Origin: a virus | IMG/VR virus record: IMGVR_UViG_3300046660_000226 | Span: 1-24,373 of that record | Strand: one strand, 5' to 3' | DNA length: 24,373 nt | The notes under the pieces: generated by a model | The model's database searches: none | Told to the model about the DNA's origin: nothing | Seen by the model: the letters and a program-made list of their open reading frames with translations, nothing else | In this document: positions 4,258 through 22,704 of the stretch, piece by piece | How the letters are laid out: every line of letters begins with the position of its first letter | Numbering within the stretch: position 1 is the first letter of the stretch | Translations under genes and position numbers: made by a program

Positions 4258-5903
4258 AGCGCTGGAGCCGCCGGCATGCCGCCATTCTGCGCTGCCTCGC
4301 TCAGCAATCTCGCGGCATCGGCCCCATCGCGAACAGCAGGCATCGACGCAGCCAGCTTCTCGGCCTGCTGCTGCTGAGCGCGCTGATCACGGATTTCCTG
4401 AGCGTCCTTGAGCGAGCGGAGGATCTTGGGTGGCGCCCCTACCCTGTCGGCATATTCCTCAACTGCTTCGTCAATCTCCAGACGATCAGCGGCTTCCGGA
4501 AAACTGGCGGCGAGATTGCCAATGAACGATACCGTGCGCTCGATCTGGCCAACCCCGACCATGCGCTGCATCTGGGCGAGGATGGAGATGAAGTCGATCT
4601 TGAGCGGCTTACCCTGCAACGCATCGGGAGCGTCGGGTAGCATCTGCTTGCGTGCCATGATTCCGAACGCCCGTTCGATCGCCACTTCCAGCTTTTCGGA
4701 ATTCACGCGCTCGATGACCGGCCCGAGCTGGGTCAGCTTCTCTTCGTTGCGGCTGGCGATTTCCTCTACGTTGCGGGGCTGGATGCCCTGCATGTTGGTG
4801 ATCGCCATGAATAGATCGGCATAGGTCAGGTTGTCGATCGCCGAAGCAACACGCTGAACGTCCTGCATGATCGCATCGATCGCCTGATACGGCATCAGGT
4901 AAGGGACAAAGACCTGATCCTTGTCGATGCCCGAGGCGGAAACGACGTTCCCCGGCATTCCGGTAAGCTTCACACTGGCAGGACTGATCTTCTCGGGGTC
5001 GACCAGCTTAGCCGTGGCTTGCGTCTTGCGCTTGGTCTGGAGCTGAAGCTCGCGCATGTCGGGCAGCGCGTCGAAGCCAGGCGAGGTGCCGTAGGTATCC
5101 CCCCCGGTCGTATCCCATCGCGGCGCCCAGAACGGCTGCTCTTCCATGCCGCCCTCGCGCAGCAGGGTGTCGGGGCGCTGGTCGTTCTCATCCCACCACA
5201 GAGACGACCATGGCTTGCCCTTGGCGGTCATCAGATCGGGGTCTTGATCGCGGTTCGGCTCGATCGCGTGGATGACCGGAACCATCGTGTCGTAATTCGA
5301 CGTATCGTAGGCCTGCTGAATCCAGGGCGTGACGTTCTTCCTGAACGACTGCACCGCCTGATGCACGGTCATTGGCACCCGGCGATAGAGCGTATCCGCT
5401 ACGCTCGCGTCACTCAGCCCAATCCAGTATTCGCCCACGGTCAGGGCATGGCACACAGCCCCCTGAACGGGATGATCGACCATCACGCACCCTTCGGTGC
5501 CGAACATGCCGAGTTCGCCGTACCCGGATTTGACCGCGCTGTAGAAGTTCGTGCCCGACAGGAAATTGTATAGCCGGCGCTCGACCTCAGCGAGGTACAG
5601 CTTCACATCCTGATTATCGGCCAGCGATTCATCGTAAGGCGCCAAGCGAAACCATGGCCGCGATGGCGACGACAGTCCGCTGGTCATGCCGCCGGTCAGT
5701 GTGCGGAAAGCAAGAATGGCGTGGCTGTTGTAGATCGCGCGGTTGGTGCGCTTGAAGTTCTTGTTCTGCTCGGCGTTCAGGAACCGTGACCGGCTCGGCT
5801 GAGCGTATTGAGCAATTTCCTTCCACTCAGCCTCATAGGGCTGGCGGGCAGATACCAGCCCGGCCATGCGGCGGATGCTGCGCTGCTTTATCGTGTCGGC
5901 CAT
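4254..5903 (-). CDS. portal protein (podovirus head-to-tail connector)
   Basis: A 549-residue protein with the hallmarks of the head-tail connector family of podoviruses (T7 gp8/BPP-1 Bbp21 type). The N-terminus has RQPYEAEWKEIAQYAQPSRS, followed by a hydrophobic-aromatic segment LTGGMTSGLSSPSRPWFRL near residues 70-88, which is strongly typical. A helix-rich C-terminal crown with a QQQQAEKLAAS stretch follows. The protein forms the dodecameric ring at one capsid vertex through which DNA is packaged. Its ATG overlaps the stop of the upstream 64-residue gene (TAATG) and its own stop overlaps the next ATG. Length and order relative to the terminase fit. No frameshift or missing segment is visible. 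Confidence 0.93.
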   Translation of the reverse strand: MADTIKQRSIRRMAGLVSARQPYEAEWKEIAQYAQPSRSRFLNAEQNKNFKRTNRAIYNSHAILAFRTLTGGMTSGLSSPSRPWFRLAPYDESLADNQDVKLYLAEVERRLYNFLSGTNFYSAVKSGYGELGMFGTEGCVMVDHPVQGAVCHALTVGEYWIGLSDASVADTLYRRVPMTVHQAVQSFRKNVTPWIQQAYDTSNYDTMVPVIHAIEPNRDQDPDLMTAKGKPWSSLWWDENDQRPDTLLREGGMEEQPFWAPRWDTTGGDTYGTSPGFDALPDMRELQLQTKRKTQATAKLVDPEKISPASVKLTGMPGNVVSASGIDKDQVFVPYLMPYQAIDAIMQDVQRVASAIDNLTYADLFMAITNMQGIQPRNVEEIASRNEEKLTQLGPVIERVNSEKLEVAIERAFGIMARKQMLPDAPDALQGKPLKIDFISILAQMQRMVGVGQIERTVSFIGNLAASFPEAADRLEIDEAVEEYADRVGAPPKILRSLKDAQEIRDQRAQQQQAEKLAASMPAVRDGADAARLLSEAAQNGGMPAAPAL

Positions 5904-6097
5904 TAGCCGCCCAGAACGGACGTGGTATTCGGCGAACCCAGCCCTAGCGCGCCGGTGAAGGCGGTTGCCGACATCGCGCGGCGGCGGCGCGCTTCGTCAT
6001 CGATGCGACCTGCGGTTGCGCCGTTGTCGGGCAGCTTGAGCGCCTGACGCTCCGGGATGGACGCGGGCGTTGGAACCTTGGGGGTGGAGATGCACAT
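5903..6097 (-). CDS. small conserved phage protein upstream of portal
   Basis: A 64-residue protein starting MCISTPKVPTPASIPERQAL, with a Pro-rich N-terminus, a central Arg-rich cluster (DDEARRRRAMS) and a C-terminus GLGSPNTTSVLGG. Similar small proteins with a Cys near the start, PxxPERQ and a terminal LGSPN motif occur beside portal genes in podovirus-like phages and prophages; I know no function. Its stop overlaps the portal ATG as TAATG, and its start overlaps the preceding stop as TGATG, so it is locked into the translation chain. A role as a minor virion or connector accessory protein is only inferred from place. Confidence 0.7.
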   Translation of the reverse strand: MCISTPKVPTPASIPERQALKLPDNGATAGRIDDEARRRRAMSATAFTGALGLGSPNTTSVLGG

Positions 6098-6252
6098 CAG
6101 GCTTTGACCGGCGTCTTGCGCTCTTGGCGCTCGGCTGGTCTCGCTGCTGTGGGCTGGTCCACGATCACATGAACTTCGTTCGGATCGTCGGCGTAGCGCG
6201 TGGCTACGGTATCGGCTTCATCGAGCGTTTTGACGTGGATCGTGATGCGCAT
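6097..6252 (-). CDS. small protein (51 aa) between large terminase and portal block
   Basis: A short frame too small for routine calling: ATG at 6252, stop TGA at 6099-6097, 51 residues, beginning MRITIHVKTLDEADTVATRY and ending KTPVKA. Its stop overlaps the ATG of the next gene (TGATG), the junction type used throughout this operon, and it fills the otherwise empty gap after the large terminase gene. The first 32 residues read as a beta-alpha-beta element (MRITIHVKTL ... NEVHVIVD), followed by a charged tail. No family recognised. Confidence 0.6.
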   Translation of the reverse strand: MRITIHVKTLDEADTVATRYADDPNEVHVIVDQPTAARPAERQERKTPVKA

Positions 6253-6295
6253 GGCACCGCGCTACGTGCGCTGATGCGGCGGTTGAATCGCGGGG

Positions 6296-7819
6296 CTAGT
6301 TGCCTAACTCCGCATAGAGATCGTCGGCACTGTTCTTCTTACCATAGTTCGCTGGGTCGAGATAACCAGGCACTTCACGCGGCTGGACAGGCTCGGCGAA
6401 CGTGCACGCCAGCGCGTCACCATCATCCGGCGATGCAAGTCCCCTCGCCTTCATGTGCTCTTTCTTCTCAAGCTGGACAGCCTGATCTGCGTTGAACCCA
6501 TATTCCGGGCCGATCAGATCATCGTGCAGCCCTTGGTGATCCGGAATGCATCCACCCGATAGCCAATGCCGCATGTTCGTCCACATCTCCGCCCGCTTGT
6601 TGGCGACGCGAACGCGAGATCCGCCAGTCCAATGGGCATCACGGACCTTCGTGCTGCCGAACCACACTTCGCTGATCATCTGGTCTGGCATGAGCTGGCG
6701 AAGGCGGTCGATAATCGCGGCACCGATGTTGCCGGCGTCCACGAATATCGCATCAGGGCGCCACTGGGCTGCCTCTAGGGCGATATCCCCAGCCACTGTC
6801 ATGGCATCCATATGGTGCCAGCGCTTCCATGGGCGGCTTCTCGCATCACGGCCACAGCGAATAGCAAGCGTTGAGTGATCGTCACCGAACCGCGCGCAGT
6901 CCACCCCGAAGATAACAGGGTCACTGCCGATCGTATGACCGAGCGGGCGGGACTTCGCTTCCTCAACGACAGCGCTGGGAATGAACTGCATGGACGATGC
7001 AGAGGGAAATTGCCCCAATACGCGCACCTTAACGATATCGCTATCCGCTCCATACGTCTCGATCATTTCCGCAAGGCGTTTCTTGTTCGTGCGCTTGACC
7101 GTTCGACTGTCTATCTGACGGGTCCGCCAAAGGTGCCTGAACCTGCCAAAGCAATCACGGAAGCGACCTGTGTTGCGCGTCGGATTGCCATATACGAACC
7201 ACAGCATCTCGGTTTCGTCGTCGGTCAGGGCGCCCTCTGCCACCTCCCAGATGCGGTCGATAATCGCTGAGCCTTCGTCCATTATGATGAACACGCGCCG
7301 GCCTGCGTTGTGCAAGCCAGCAAATGCCTCTGTATTCCTCTCAGACCAAGGGATCGCATCGCATCGCCACGTCTTGTCGTGTCCCGCTGAACGAGACGAT
7401 ATGCTTGTGGCCTGAAGGTCGAACATCTCCCGCAATTCTGGTAAGCGGATGAGAGAGAACCATTTCGCAACCTCTGGCCAGGTCTTGGTGCGAAGCTGGG
7501 TATCCGTATTCGCGGTGACCACGCCACGCGCGTCGGGGAATGTCATTATTGCCCATAGGACCAACCAGGCCACCTCAGTCGATTTGCCCACACCGTGGCC
7601 AGAGGCGATTGCCTCCTGAATAATCCGGTACGGGTCATCTGTCAGACTCGCACCAACGTCCTCAAGTTGCTTATGCTGCCACTCGTCAGGCCCCGTTTCG
7701 TCGGCAAGAGACGTGCCTTCTACGCCCCAAGGGAAAGCCCAGAGTACGAAACCTAGCGGATCATGTTGGTACTTGAACAGCTCGGCCGTGATGCGTTTTG
7801 TAATCTCGACCCGGCTCAC
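6296..7819 (-). CDS. terL: terminase large subunit (packaging ATPase and nuclease)
   Basis: A 507-residue protein with both terminase domains. The ATPase half shows a Walker A motif GHGVGKST at residues 74-81, a Walker B strand VFIIMDE at 176-182 and the coupling motif GNPTR at 211-215. The C-terminal half shows the RNase H-like nuclease start IFGVDCARFGDD (Asp near residue 307) and later acidic clusters. It pumps DNA into the procapsid through the portal and cuts the concatemer. Translation starts at a GTG whose bases overlap the stop of the small subunit (GTGA), so the two are coupled. Length is usual for the family. Confidence 0.93.
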   Translation of the reverse strand: MSRVEITKRITAELFKYQHDPLGFVLWAFPWGVEGTSLADETGPDEWQHKQLEDVGASLTDDPYRIIQEAIASGHGVGKSTEVAWLVLWAIMTFPDARGVVTANTDTQLRTKTWPEVAKWFSLIRLPELREMFDLQATSISSRSAGHDKTWRCDAIPWSERNTEAFAGLHNAGRRVFIIMDEGSAIIDRIWEVAEGALTDDETEMLWFVYGNPTRNTGRFRDCFGRFRHLWRTRQIDSRTVKRTNKKRLAEMIETYGADSDIVKVRVLGQFPSASSMQFIPSAVVEEAKSRPLGHTIGSDPVIFGVDCARFGDDHSTLAIRCGRDARSRPWKRWHHMDAMTVAGDIALEAAQWRPDAIFVDAGNIGAAIIDRLRQLMPDQMISEVWFGSTKVRDAHWTGGSRVRVANKRAEMWTNMRHWLSGGCIPDHQGLHDDLIGPEYGFNADQAVQLEKKEHMKARGLASPDDGDALACTFAEPVQPREVPGYLDPANYGKKNSADDLYAELGN

Positions 7820-8985: not shown

Positions 8986-9026
8986 CTCACTTCCTCTCGA
9001 TATGCCAGGGTGTAGGGATGGGTCAT
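8982..9026 (-). CDS. possible 14-codon bridging micro-ORF
   Basis: ATG at 9026 overlaps the stop of the helicase-loader-like gene (ATGA), reads 14 sense codons (MTHPYTLAYREEVR) and ends in a TGA that overlaps the ATG of the 39-residue gene (ATGA). The ribosome-binding site of the following gene lies inside it. Coupling on both sides is suggestive. A product this short may have no function beyond carrying ribosomes across. Confidence 0.35.
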   Translation of the reverse strand: MTHPYTLAYREEVR

Positions 9027-9712
9027 GCTGCTTTCCTATATTTCTCAAGCACATGATCGGTATATGCGGATGGCGAAGCGGCGGCCTGGGCAAGGCGCTT
9101 GGGCATCCATTCGATGGGGTTGCTGATCCCCTTTGCTTGGCAGTCGAGGACGGCGGCTAGGACATCGCCATCCGATCGGCCTTTGCGCCAGCGGCCCACG
9201 ATGGAGCGGGCGGCGCGTTCGTCATGTCCCGATGCGGTCAAGAGCGTGACGCCAATATCCCAAATGGCTTTCACGATGTCGACGGGCGGAACGCCTGCTT
9301 CGTTAGAAGCAGAATCTTGTTTCCCTTGTTCTTGTGTGGTCCCTAACTGGTCCTTTGCTGGTCCCGACCGTTCAGGAATTTGCTGATATTTGTCGTAATT
9401 GCATATAGTTAAAGTGGTCCCTGACTGGTCCCGATTTTGGAGGACCATTTCATGCGCCTCTAGGCGTGCCAAGAACCGCCGAACGCGCTTCTTGTCCCAC
9501 TGGAATGCCGATGCTAGCGAGCGGTCCGAGATGTGTATTTGACCACGCTCAAGCATCACCGATTGGCCCTGCCCGGCGGTCCGGCGAATAGGCTTCCACG
9601 CGGTATGCTCGATGAGCCAGAACCACGCGTCGGCGTCGGCCATTGGGTCGCGGCGTTCCTCGAATGCCTCGTTGTCGCGCCAGCCGCGATGCATCGACAC
9701 CCAGCCGCTCAC
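9023..9712 (-). CDS. replication initiation / helicase-loader-like protein
   Basis: A 229-residue protein, GTG start overlapping the helicase stop (GTGA). The N-terminal part (SGWVSMHRGWRDNEAFEERR ... ADAWFWLIEHTAWKP) followed by a winged-helix region (LASAFQWDKKRVRRFLARLE) resembles phage replisome organisers of the lambda O/DnaD-like class: an aromatic-rich start and an HTH that reads the origin. A flexible Gln/Ser/Pro-rich linker (about residues 115-140) leads to a C-terminal helical domain (IVKAIWDIGVTLLTASGHDE ... PIEWMPKRLAQA) like DnaT/DnaD-type helicase-binding parts. Beside the DnaB-type helicase, it probably recognises the origin or loads the helicase. The exact family is uncertain. 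Confidence 0.7.
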   Translation of the reverse strand: MSGWVSMHRGWRDNEAFEERRDPMADADAWFWLIEHTAWKPIRRTAGQGQSVMLERGQIHISDRSLASAFQWDKKRVRRFLARLEAHEMVLQNRDQSGTTLTICNYDKYQQIPERSGPAKDQLGTTQEQGKQDSASNEAGVPPVDIVKAIWDIGVTLLTASGHDERAARSIVGRWRKGRSDGDVLAAVLDCQAKGISNPIEWMPKRLAQAAASPSAYTDHVLEKYRKAA

Positions 9713-11094
9713 CCGCGCACCGCCTGAAACTTGGCGTAGAAGTCAGCCACGCCATGGCTGGCTGGGCGCTGGCGGTGCTTACCGAGAATAATCTCTAGCT
9801 TGTTCTCGCACTCTGATAGCGCTTGCTCCCAAGCAACACGCTCGGCGCTCTTGGGCGCGGGCTCGTTCTGGCGCAGGTAATATTCGTCACGGAGCAGAAA
9901 CAACACGACGTCGGCGTCCTGCTCGATCTGCCCACTTTCCCGAAGGTCTGCCAGATTGGGGCGCTTGTCCGAGCGCTTCTCAACGTCGCGGTTGAGTTGG
10001 GATATCGCGATCACCGCGACATCGTTTTCCTTCGCGATGGCTTTGAGCCCACGGCTAATCTCGGAGATTTCCTGGACGCGGCCTTCATGTGCCCGGCTAC
10101 CTGAGAGAAGCTGGAGGTAGTCCACCACGACAACCTCAAGCGGGATGCCCTTGGCAGCCAGTCTTCGCTTGTGCCGGCGGACGACCATCGCAAGGCGACC
10201 GATCGTCATATGCGCCACGTCCTCAATCTGGAGAGGAAATTGCGATATGCGCGCGCCGTAGGCGACGGTGCGGTCAATGATCCATTGCGGGACCTGTTCG
10301 TCCAGCAACTCGCTAAGGGCGATCGGGCGACGATCGTCGAACGACAGGTCCGCCATCATGCGGGCGGTCAATTCCTCCGCGCCCATCTCAAGCGAGACGT
10401 AGAGTGTGCCACGACCGTCCATGGCGGTACCGAGCGACAGAGAGAGCGCGACGGCGGTCTTGCCCATGCCAGGACGCGCAGCGAGCACGACAAGCTGTTT
10501 CCGGCGGATACCCCCGGTAAGCTTGTCGAGTGTGGGGACGCGGTTGCAGCGGATGGCGTTGGCCGGTTGGCCAAGCGAGTTGGCCAGATTGTTGAACGCG
10601 TCGCCAATTGATAAAGATGTTGACGCCTGCCCTGGAGCAAGCGCGCCCACGATCGCGGCATCTGCTACATCGGCAATGCTCTCCACGCTGCTCTGTGGAT
10701 CTGATGCCTTGGCGATCCCTTCGCGCAGACCGTCCGCCAACCGCCGCTTGCAGGCCTCTCTGGCGATCATCTTGGCCCCATCGGTGGGGCGCATGAGCAA
10801 CGTCGATGAGGTTGCCATGTCGCGCCAGAAGCGCTGGCCTTCTGCGCCGCTAAATGCCGGCATGTCGGCGATCATCGGGCGGATGGTGATGATATTTGCT
10901 GGGCGACCTTGGGCGTACTCAGAGACGACTAGACCATAGACGTGGCCGAACGCTGCTTCCGCGAAGTCCTCCGGATTGAGAATGTCGGCAACCGCATCGA
11001 TGCGCGCATTGTCGTACATCAGGCTCGCAAGCAGGACGTATTCCGCTTCTACAAGCGACTGGCTGGCGGCGGTGGCCGAGACAAGCTGCGTCAC
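9709..11094 (-). CDS. dnaB: replicative DNA helicase, DnaB-like
   Basis: A 461-residue protein with an N-terminal DnaB domain (residues about 10-110) and a RecA-like C-terminal ATPase. Walker A is ARPGMGKT at about 206-213; Walker B is VVVVDYLQLL at about 321-330, followed by motif H3 SQLNR (365-369) and H4 (ADLRESGQIEQDADVVLFL). It unwinds DNA at the phage fork. I start at the GTG at 11094, since GGAGGA sits 6 bases upstream and GTGA overlaps the preceding stop; an ATG at 11127 would add 11 residues but lacks such a site. Size matches phage-encoded DnaB proteins. No intein or split is visible. Confidence 0.93.
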   Translation of the reverse strand: MTQLVSATAASQSLVEAEYVLLASLMYDNARIDAVADILNPEDFAEAAFGHVYGLVVSEYAQGRPANIITIRPMIADMPAFSGAEGQRFWRDMATSSTLLMRPTDGAKMIAREACKRRLADGLREGIAKASDPQSSVESIADVADAAIVGALAPGQASTSLSIGDAFNNLANSLGQPANAIRCNRVPTLDKLTGGIRRKQLVVLAARPGMGKTAVALSLSLGTAMDGRGTLYVSLEMGAEELTARMMADLSFDDRRPIALSELLDEQVPQWIIDRTVAYGARISQFPLQIEDVAHMTIGRLAMVVRRHKRRLAAKGIPLEVVVVDYLQLLSGSRAHEGRVQEISEISRGLKAIAKENDVAVIAISQLNRDVEKRSDKRPNLADLRESGQIEQDADVVLFLLRDEYYLRQNEPAPKSAERVAWEQALSECENKLEIILGKHRQRPASHGVADFYAKFQAVRG

Positions 11095-11288
11095 GCCGCG
11101 TCCTCCGATAAGAAGAGATCGCGCCACTTTGCCCAGGCGCGGGCGGCGGCCATCGAATGCTCAAGATTGGTGGCAAGCTCAGGGTTGTCGAGTTGCTGTG
11201 TCGCTAGTTCCGAATACACGCGCCAAGCGGCTTCAACCGGAGTTTCGCCGGCCTGCTGCTTGCTCGCGAAAGGGAGGATAGCGCCCAT
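11091..11288 (-). CDS. small protein upstream of helicase, 65 aa
   Basis: A 65-residue protein starting MGAILPFASKQQAGETPVEA and ending AKWRDLFLSEDAA, predicted to be helical. Its stop overlaps the helicase GTG start. It carries the helicase ribosome-binding site within its last codons. It begins 8 bases after the stop of the 35-residue frame. No family recognised. Its position suggests a replication accessory role, for example as a helicase partner or antitoxin-like regulator, but nothing in the sequence distinguishes these. Confidence 0.65.
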   Translation of the reverse strand: MGAILPFASKQQAGETPVEAAWRVYSELATQQLDNPELATNLEHSMAAARAWAKWRDLFLSEDAA

Positions 11289-11296
11289 CGACTATT

Positions 11297-11404
11297 CTAT
11301 GCTCCCGACAACTGGGCGCAAGCAACTGTGGATAATCGCTTATCCACATCAAACAGGCTAAGCCGTTGAAAATGCTCGATGTGGATAATCGGGATGCCGA
11401 TCAT
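11297..11404 (-). CDS. possible small protein, 35 aa, overlapping DnaA boxes
   Basis: ATG at 11404 has a strong ribosome-binding site (GAGGGAA) and overlaps the stop of the DUF1064-type gene (ATGA). It reads 35 codons (MIGIPIIHIEHFQRLSLFDV ... ACAQLSGA). The gene body is built around three DnaA boxes, which force residues such as IIHI and DKRLST. So the stretch may be primarily an origin that happens to stay open, with translation passing through it. Both functions may coexist. Confidence 0.45.
   Translation of the reverse strand: MIGIPIIHIEHFQRLSLFDVDKRLSTVACAQLSGA
11327..11388. other. candidate replication origin: three perfect DnaA boxes
   Basis: Three exact copies of the DnaA 9-mer TTATCCACA (canonical TTATnCACA) lie within 62 bases: minus orientation at 11327-11335, plus orientation at 11340-11348, and minus orientation at 11380-11388. 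The first two face each other across a 4-base spacer (TCGC), forming a 22-base perfect palindrome. The two minus-oriented boxes share the longer 12-mer CGATTATCCACA. They lie directly upstream of the helicase and helicase-loader genes, where phage origins commonly sit. An AT-rich unwinding element is not obvious nearby. Chance occurrence of three such 9-mers is very unlikely. Confidence 0.7.
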
Positions 11405-11751
11405 ACTTCCCTCAATTCGATTTGAGGGAACAGGTGACGAAAAATGGCCGCGCGCAGCGGATAGTCCCGCACGACGAAGCCCTTGCTGTCCTCTACCACC
11501 TGCTTTTGCGATTTGACCTCGACATAGGCGAAGTCGCCGGTGAAGCGAGCGCACTGGCCATTCTTCATCATCACTGGCTTGCCGCCGATAACGAACTCGA
11601 ATCGGGGCTGCACCTGAAGCAGCATGATTTCGTCGAGGCGCTGGAGTAGATGCAGTTCGCCGCAGCGCGTCGCTTCACGCTTGCTGTCGTGAATGTGGCC
11701 GTTGTTGCATGCCGTTTTCTTGGCGCCGTACTTGCTCACCCCTGCCCCCAC
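11401..11751 (-). CDS. DUF1064-type nuclease (PD-(D/E)xK/VRR-Nuc-like)
   Basis: A 116-residue protein with the typical DUF1064 order: N-terminal SKYGAKK, then DSKREATRCGELHLLQRLDE, LQVQPRFEF, and the catalytic-looking block FTGDFAYVEV ... VVEDSKG (Asp then Glu-Asp-x-Lys), ending PLRAAIFRHLFP. The family is a small phage endonuclease thought to act on branched DNA during replication or recombination; activity here is inferred. The start is a GTG, either at 11751 (AAGG 7 bases upstream) or at 11739, where GTGA overlaps the preceding stop. I keep the longer one. Its stop overlaps the ATG at 11404. Confidence 0.85.
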   Translation of the reverse strand: MGAGVSKYGAKKTACNNGHIHDSKREATRCGELHLLQRLDEIMLLQVQPRFEFVIGGKPVMMKNGQCARFTGDFAYVEVKSQKQVVEDSKGFVVRDYPLRAAIFRHLFPQIELREV

Positions 11752-21298: not shown

Positions 21299-21601
21299 AT
21301 GGGTGACATCCTGACTTTGGCGAAGAAGCTTGAGCGAGCCATGCGCAATGGCACCGGCTTCAACGTGACAATGGACGAACTGTCCGCCGTCGCGAACGAG
21401 GAAGGCGTGCTAGAGGCTATCAATGCAGCCAAGCTTAGGGAGTTGAAGGCGCGATGCCTCGCAAGGTCGAACGTTACACGGTCGGGGAATATTGGCTCGA
21501 CAAGCGCCGGGATGGGAAGTCGCCCGACATTTGGCAGATCGCCAGCTACAACCCCGCAACTCGATCTATCAGCTATCGAAGCACTCGCACGGACAGCCTA
21601 G
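21299..21601 (+). CDS. hypothetical protein, 100 aa, overlapping integrase start
   Basis: ATG at 21299, 6 bases after the previous stop. Residues 1-50 look authentic: MGDILTLAKKLERAMRNGTG, NVTMDELSAVANEEGVLEAI, then NAAKLRELKARCL. From about residue 52 on it overlaps the integrase gene in another frame for 148 bases, and composition turns into a Ser/Thr/Arg/Gly shadow-like string. The authentic end may have been lost by a small change, or the overlap may be tolerated. Function unknown. Confidence 0.55.
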   Translation: MGDILTLAKKLERAMRNGTGFNVTMDELSAVANEEGVLEAINAAKLRELKARCLARSNVTRSGNIGSTSAGMGSRPTFGRSPATTPQLDLSAIEALARTA

Positions 21602-22704
21602 ATGACGCCAAAGGGATCATCAAAGCGTACGCAGCTGCCGAGCATTCTAAGCAGCCACAGCGCCCGGAAGACGCCAAGGTCATCCCGCTGCTCTACACCT
21701 ATTGGGAAGAGCATGGCCGCAAGGTTGTCAGCCCTGCCCAGATCGCAAGTTCAATCCGCCAGTTCGTCGGGTTCCTTATGCAGGATCGTGTCGGCATGAA
21801 CGCGACCGTCTCCGATCTGACGCCAACCGTCTTCACCCGCTTCCTGGAGTGGAGGATGAGCCCGCACACCTATGCGGTGCCGTGGGGCGGACAGACGCTC
21901 AAGCAATCGAGCAAGGGAGTGCGCGGCGAAAGCGTGCAGCGCAACCTTGACGACGTTCGCGCAGCCCTGACGCACCATGCGAACAACGGACGCCTGCCAT
22001 ACGTACCCAAGGTGCCGAGCGTGCCGGCAACACTGCGCTCCCCTCCGAAGGATAGGGTACTATCGGACGCAGAGCTTGGCGCGATCGTCGGGTACGCGAT
22101 GCATGACCCCGACCTATTCCGACAGGTAGCTTTAATCCTGGGAACGATCGTGCGGACGGAGGCTGCGGCCAAGTTCGACCCGCGCGCCCAATTCGATCAA
22201 GAGCGCAACCTGATCGACCTTCACCCGGTCGGGCACCCGCGCACCAAAAAACGCAACCCGGTCGTACCCGCTATCGAGCCGTTACGGCCGATCCTGAAAG
22301 CATGGGCAATTGATCCCCATACGAAGCGGGCGAAGTCCCACAAGACCCGCTGGCGGCAGATGCGCCGCGTCCTGGGACTATCGGACGATGTCGAACTGAA
22401 GACCCTGCGGCACACCGTGGCCACCCGCCTACGGTCAAAGCGCGTGTCATTCGAGCAAGTGGAAACGCTGCTTGGGCACCGCGTCTATAAAAAGACAAGC
22501 GAGGTCTACGCGAAGTACGATCCCGACTATCTTTCTGAGGCCGCAGAGGGACTTGAGGCCATTTGGGCAGAAGTGATGACGGCTGCGTGGACATGGTCTG
22601 CGGGCCACTTGCGGGCCAAAGTGGGTAACGGACCTACGGAAATACTTGACAGGAACAGCGAAAAAGCTAAGGTTTTTCTAGCTTCAAGGCTTGGTGGGCG
22701 GTGA
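21454..22704 (+). CDS. int: tyrosine integrase (site-specific recombinase)
   Basis: A 416-residue protein. N-terminal arm-binding region (YTVGEYWLDKRRDGKSPDIW), then a SAM-like core-binding domain (KVVSPAQIASSIRQFVGFLM) and a catalytic domain. Catalytic residues visible: Arg234 (IVRTEAA), a basic pair near 265-266, Arg319-His320 in LKTLRHTVATRL, Gly-His 341-342 (LLGHRV) and the likely nucleophile Tyr352 (SEVYAKY). The first residue of the usual HxLRH motif is Lys316, not His. It integrates the phage at the adjacent att site; its stop lies inside the tRNA fragment on the opposite strand. GAAGG lies upstream of the ATG. Confidence 0.92.
   Translation: MPRKVERYTVGEYWLDKRRDGKSPDIWQIASYNPATRSISYRSTRTDSLDDAKGIIKAYAAAEHSKQPQRPEDAKVIPLLYTYWEEHGRKVVSPAQIASSIRQFVGFLMQDRVGMNATVSDLTPTVFTRFLEWRMSPHTYAVPWGGQTLKQSSKGVRGESVQRNLDDVRAALTHHANNGRLPYVPKVPSVPATLRSPPKDRVLSDAELGAIVGYAMHDPDLFRQVALILGTIVRTEAAAKFDPRAQFDQERNLIDLHPVGHPRTKKRNPVVPAIEPLRPILKAWAIDPHTKRAKSHKTRWRQMRRVLGLSDDVELKTLRHTVATRLRSKRVSFEQVETLLGHRVYKKTSEVYAKYDPDYLSEAAEGLEAIWAEVMTAAWTWSAGHLRAKVGNGPTEILDRNSEKAKVFLASRLGGR

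Follow-up and report, generated by a model that had tools for sequence, protein, structure and literature searches.

DnaA boxes ahead of a phage dnaB gene: most likely an optional regulatory accessory rather than the origin

A temperate tailed phage carries three DnaA boxes in a leader ahead of its replication genes, and an earlier note took this cluster for a candidate origin. Comparisons with related phages suggest that the boxes are an optional accessory, probably functional and most likely regulatory, rather than the origin. Most probably, the core origin is a lambda-type element, with iterons, an AT-rich stretch, and a hairpin (9295-9434), inside the gene for the DnaD-like initiator. The DNA that we analyzed (the window) is a 24.4 kb record from IMG/VR. 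It encodes an integrase (21454-22704), repressor-like (cro/cI-like) genes near 13.6-14.3 kb, and several HTH proteins, and it has terminase homology at 6296-7819. The gene order on the minus strand is DNA methylase, a small ORF, DUF1064, the 35-codon leader frame, a 65-amino-acid ORF, DnaB, DnaD-like, MarR-like, and the terminase genes. The features that we discuss are:

9023-9712, minus strand: DnaD-like initiator/helicase loader (phrog_2514, 5.3e-18); its N-terminal DNA-binding half is exchanged among relatives
9295-9312, minus strand: candidate origin hairpin, CTGCTTC-TAAC-GAAGCAG; perfect, with stems that differ and a loop that is conserved in relatives
9335-9434, minus strand: candidate origin iterons, 11 bp (GGGACCA / AGGACCA), three plus two copies on either side of an AT-rich stretch; located within the DnaD-like gene
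9709-11127, minus strand: phage DnaB-type replicative helicase (Pfam DnaB_C, 2.3e-68; phrog_19, 2.8e-79)
11091-11288, minus strand: 65-amino-acid ORF; overlaps the dnaB start; no Pfam or PHROG match
11297-11404, minus strand: 35-codon open leader frame that holds the boxes; its ATG overlaps the DUF1064 stop codon; the product is not conserved
11327-11335, minus strand: DnaA box 3, an exact match to TTATCCACA; the box nearest the 65-amino-acid gene
11340-11348, plus strand: DnaA box 2, an exact match, inverted; pairs with box 3 as a palindrome (11327-11348)
11380-11388, minus strand: DnaA box 1, an exact match to TTATCCACA; inverted relative to box 2, at an offset of 40 nt
11401-11751, minus strand: DUF1064 / Holliday-junction-resolvase-like gene (Pfam PF06356, 1.4e-13; phrog_190, 1.2e-20); directly upstream of the leader

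An exact-match scan of the whole window (24,373 bases) found three copies of TTATCCACA, all at 11327-11388. Shuffling the whole window gave an expectation of 0.06 copies (standard deviation 0.24), and three copies were seen in 0 of 100 shuffles. A relaxed DnaA consensus, TTWTNCACA, matched the same three sites only, with 0.57 expected. Under a Markov null for the 141-nt leader, the probability of one or more boxes was 8e-4, and two or more boxes arose in 0 of 200,000 draws. Boxes 3 and 2 together (TGTGGATAA-TCGC-TTATCCACA) are a perfect 22-base palindrome. The earlier note thus had the coordinates and strands of the three exact boxes right, and the window has no further copies; the 22-base palindrome with a 4-base spacer (boxes 2 and 3) and the neighboring helicase and loader genes (DnaB at 9709-11127 and DnaD-like at 9023-9712, both on the minus strand) are also as it described. 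The cumulative GC skew has its minimum at 10228, between the box cluster and the iteron element, and is confounded by gene orientation.

Overlapping starts and stops place the leader inside an operon. A promoter and terminator scan found no sigma-70-type promoter or terminator at the leader, and a search of Rfam gave no match. The coupling of starts and stops suggests read-through from an upstream promoter. Both this coupling and the lack of a promoter speak against the regulatory reading that we propose below. The leader frame, which lies directly before the 65-amino-acid ORF, was absent from the earlier note. In the leaders of the window, L182, L185, and L188, this frame is open from the stop codon of the upstream gene to the same TAG before the 65-amino-acid gene, and the peptides differ; this is possibly a sign of translational coupling. 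A search for the 65-amino-acid protein in 396 genomes of one order found two weak matches only, and scanning genomes with a DnaB profile brought up mainly dnaB genes of chromosomes.

The records that share the leader form four haplotypes, each with 1-3 consensus boxes. (Some of these records are near-identical, so there are about four independent cases.) The window's haplotype has three exact boxes. In L182 (the same record as L004; L006/L187 and L005/L189 are alike), the window's box positions hold one consensus box (TTATCCACA, an exact box 3) and two boxes with one mismatch each (CTATCCACA at box 1 and TTATCCTCA at box 2). In L184/L185/L186, boxes 1 and 2 are exact and keep the same inverted 40-nt offset, and the third box is lost (destroyed in L185). 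The fourth haplotype, L007/L188, has TTATCCACA, TTTTCCACA, and TTATCCCCA in a single orientation, and part of this set has shifted to new positions and to a different reading frame. This amounts to two consensus boxes plus one: box 3 has an aligned exact copy, box 1 reads TTATCCCCA, and box 2 is absent.

L185 is a distant relative, whose DnaB is 40% identical and whose 65-amino-acid protein is 62% identical to the window's. A comparison of the window with L185 shows 0 changes at the 18 positions of the outer box pair, versus 9 changes at the 31 positions of the spacer (P = 0.0098, hypergeometric). Between the window and L182, the boxes are not kept better than their surroundings, as two of the three carry a change. 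The 65-amino-acid protein is 100% identical in L004, L007, and L182. The 22-base pattern that comes after the leader is also present in L183, which lacks boxes. Since the gene downstream is a different one there, L183 may not be a true relative at the leader. When we scanned the leader-bearing records in full (11-50 kb each), every TTWTNCACA was inside the leader and none were elsewhere. Given the window's shuffle rate, the non-redundant sequence of these records (about 125 kb) would be expected to hold roughly 3 outside the leader; the phages may therefore avoid boxes there.

The earlier note had suggested checking if relatives keep the boxes while the surroundings change, and several diverged relatives do so, always at the same place in the genome. 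Given the non-random cluster, the four diverged leaders with boxes, the lack of boxes elsewhere, and the outer pair's conservation relative to its spacer, a DnaA-related function for the leader boxes is likely. As judged from these sequences, the retention of the cluster fits selection for the binding of host DnaA.

Constraint on the encoded protein does not explain the boxes: the leader's product is not conserved (4 of the 5 differences in the aligned part of the peptides of the window and L182 alter the amino acid), and in L188 a box falls in a different reading frame. We also considered that the boxes might have no present function and simply have been inherited as part of a dispensable leader frame. 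The L182 haplotype, with a single intact box of the three, and the small size of the sampled clade would fit this, but in diverged leaders, and only there, boxes have been kept or have formed anew, and we consider this explanation quite improbable. Or the boxes might be a decoy that titrates host DnaA, slowing initiation by the host as copies of the phage build up. Each copy of the window's genome would supply three consensus sites. But the leader-bearing phages have just 1-3 sites per genome, always in the leader of one operon, and a decoy has no reason to be at a fixed position. The decoy idea seems weak, and we would be surprised if it were correct.

The palindrome raises other possibilities. 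A perfect 22-base palindrome ahead of an operon resembles an operator, and as the phage has several HTH proteins, another protein such as a phage repressor might recognize TGTGGATAANCGNTTATCCACA. However, there is no copy of it near the cro/cI-like genes (13.6-14.3 kb) or elsewhere in the window. Also, the palindrome is lost in L188 and imperfect in L182, yet single consensus 9-mers are retained. We rejected a repressor operator because the palindrome is not kept among the relatives; we think it quite improbable. Alternatively, the leader transcript might be an attenuator, with boxes 1 and 2 or boxes 2 and 3 pairing alternatively so as to control read-through into, or translation of, the 65-amino-acid gene and dnaB. 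The window allows strong pairing either way, but these pairings are not conserved, and the changes in relatives are uncompensated. The leader's lack of a terminator-like site or a match to Rfam also counts against an RNA attenuator. We rejected it, as the pairing is not kept among relatives, and it is very unlikely.

If the boxes are most likely regulatory, where is the origin? The comparisons do not support the earlier note's proposal of a candidate origin at the cluster. The phage has its own iterons and hairpin about 1.9 kb from the boxes, and we found no unwinding element or iterons adjoining the cluster. L014-L017 have the window's iterons, at the same offsets, and no TTWTNCACA anywhere in records of 38-86 kb. 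Upstream of dnaB, about 35 loci of the DnaB family lack boxes, the exceptions being L018/L114 (one record) and L110, with a single site each. In the other direction, leaders with boxes accompany three types of initiator and iterons (in the window, L004/L007, and L185). Since the same iterons occur without boxes and the same leader occurs with three types of initiator, the two modules are independent, and the boxes are not required for this type of origin. An oriC-like origin at 11327-11388 is thus not supported: the box cluster is present, and the close clade and L184-L186 retain boxes, but L014-L017 and most of the DnaB relatives lack them. The related claim that the phage recruits host DnaA fares better in part. 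The cluster is non-random and retained, which favors it; recruitment to an origin at the cluster is not favored, and the phage's own iterons exist. A scan for inverted box pairs found nine other loci, none of which match the window's dnaB or leader genes.

The DnaD-like gene holds the five iteron copies, in two groups on either side of an AT-rich stretch, and then the hairpin. (By inspection, the sequence has AT-rich stretches both between the iterons and beyond them.) The N-terminal half of the DnaD-like protein matches the initiators of other phages. In L018, the repeats are altered as a set to GGGACA, with the same layout. L004/L007 and L185 have another N-terminal half of the initiator and other repeats, and the same C-terminal part as the window. 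L004, L006, L007, and L182 have DnaB proteins that are 99% identical to the window's, and the N-terminal half of the initiator has been replaced together with the iterons. The initiator's DNA-binding half and the repeats change together, as expected for an initiator with its own origin. In these relatives we also observed an inserted T5orf172-like gene, and the exchange of modules within the replication operon is sharp.

The hairpin is also retained. At least 21 of 37 relatives have a perfect hairpin at the same place after dnaB, and more have shorter or imperfect stems. Of the perfect hairpins with a 7-bp stem and a 4-nt loop within 1.6 kb after dnaB, 21 of 24 have a TAAC, TAAA, TATC, or TAGC loop; among such hairpins in 219 kb of upstream sequence, none do. 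Across 16 distinct stems, at least two types of pair are seen at six of the seven base pairs, and the changes on the two sides compensate for each other. Of these 16 stems, 15 have C-G as the closing pair, and the loop always begins with TA. A perfect hairpin of 7-8 bp with a TA(A/T/G)(A/C) loop and a freely covarying stem is also found in L004, L012, L016, L018, L106, L107, L111, L112, L113, L120, L122, L123, L127, L130, and L185, in the initiator gene and downstream of the iterons. We did not see it in five initiator relatives from phages of other hosts (L221-L225). The hairpin had no match in Rfam, and we found no description of it in the literature that we searched, which is not proof of absence.

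This arrangement resembles phage lambda's. In lambda, the iterons and an AT-rich stretch are in the middle of the initiator gene (ori-lambda in gene O), and transcription of the operon crosses the origin (PMC3985674, PMC7466680). Lambda also has DnaA-box-like sites, footprinted with DnaA, that are near pO, outside the origin and close to the replication genes (PMC3985674, PMC7466680). Similarly, the window's iterons and AT-rich stretch are within the initiator gene, and its boxes are outside the putative origin, near the replication genes. Unlike lambda, the window has 11-bp iterons followed by the conserved TAA(C/A)-loop hairpin, its initiator is DnaD-like, and the phage encodes its own DnaB. 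Also, the window's boxes match the consensus exactly and are about 1.9 kb from the iterons. By analogy, the leader most likely modulates the replication operon via DnaA, as reported for lambda. Beyond lambda, we found little literature on DnaA boxes in the origins of temperate phages.

Could the boxes instead take part in initiation, as an auxiliary origin or a site where DnaA loads the helicase? There is a precedent in the A-site of ABC primosomes, where a DnaA-box hairpin recruits DnaB/DnaC (PMC6127211), and a similar hairpin here could prime the strand that is displaced from the iteron origin. Like the A-site, the window's palindrome can form a DnaA-box hairpin, and it folds as single-stranded DNA (z = -5.1 and -3.7 for the two strands of the leader). 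And in an unrelated phage (L010), a palindromic pair of DnaA boxes lies right after GGGGCAC iterons in a putative initiator gene. Unlike the A-site, the window's hairpin is neither conserved among relatives nor adjacent to the iteron origin. The boxes of L188 have a single orientation and do not fold (z = +1.2); in L182, a mismatch is left uncompensated (z = -1.6); and L185 retains just the widely spaced pair of boxes. Furthermore, relatives with the same iterons manage without boxes, and the iterons are 1.9 kb away. The clustered exact consensus boxes are also reminiscent of oriC-type origins and of iteron plasmids that use DnaA. However, there are only three boxes, with no adjacent unwinding element or iterons found, and relatives do without the cluster. 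Overall, a role in initiation is unlikely, though it is the main rival to a regulatory role.

We noticed other phages with DnaA boxes. In L010, the GGGGCAC array and then the palindromic box pair (5571-6614) are located where the present group has the TAA(C/A) hairpin. L191, L193, L194, L195, L197, and L198 have several TTATCCACA boxes in a conserved arrangement, which is another phage cluster of DnaA boxes. In four of these six (L191, L194, L195, and L198), there are weak matches to the window's small terminase near the boxes.

We propose that the cluster is a host-DnaA leader ahead of the dnaB-initiator operon, an accessory that tunes the operon, and that the core origin is the element at 9295-9434. 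We hold this proposal as a whole with middling confidence. From the sequences, we infer DnaA binding, a promoter at the leader, and a direction of effect, as follows. Host DnaA would bind the leader boxes. The bound DnaA would tune the expression of the operon and the transcription that runs through it, from the leader through dnaB to the origin, and so would couple replication of the phage to the DnaA state of its host. At the iteron/hairpin origin, the phage would rely on its own initiator for opening and on its own DnaB as the helicase. More tentatively, it is possible that these modules are interchangeable parts: an initiator half with its iterons; a TAA(C/A)-loop hairpin that marks where the phage's DnaB is loaded; and an optional DnaA leader that couples replication to the host.

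An influence of DnaA on a phage replication operon is already known from lambda, and the window would be a further case. The comparative evidence corrects a tempting step, from DnaA boxes to an origin. It also provides a natural contrast, as the same iterons occur with or without boxes and the same boxes occur with different iterons, so that one can directly test what host DnaA does in phages with their own helicase. More novel than the boxes is the covarying hairpin that the comparison exposed in the origin region of many phages with their own DnaB. If our proposals are correct, this hairpin would be a kind of origin element not described before, and the leader with its DnaA boxes would be a portable device for coupling a phage to its host.
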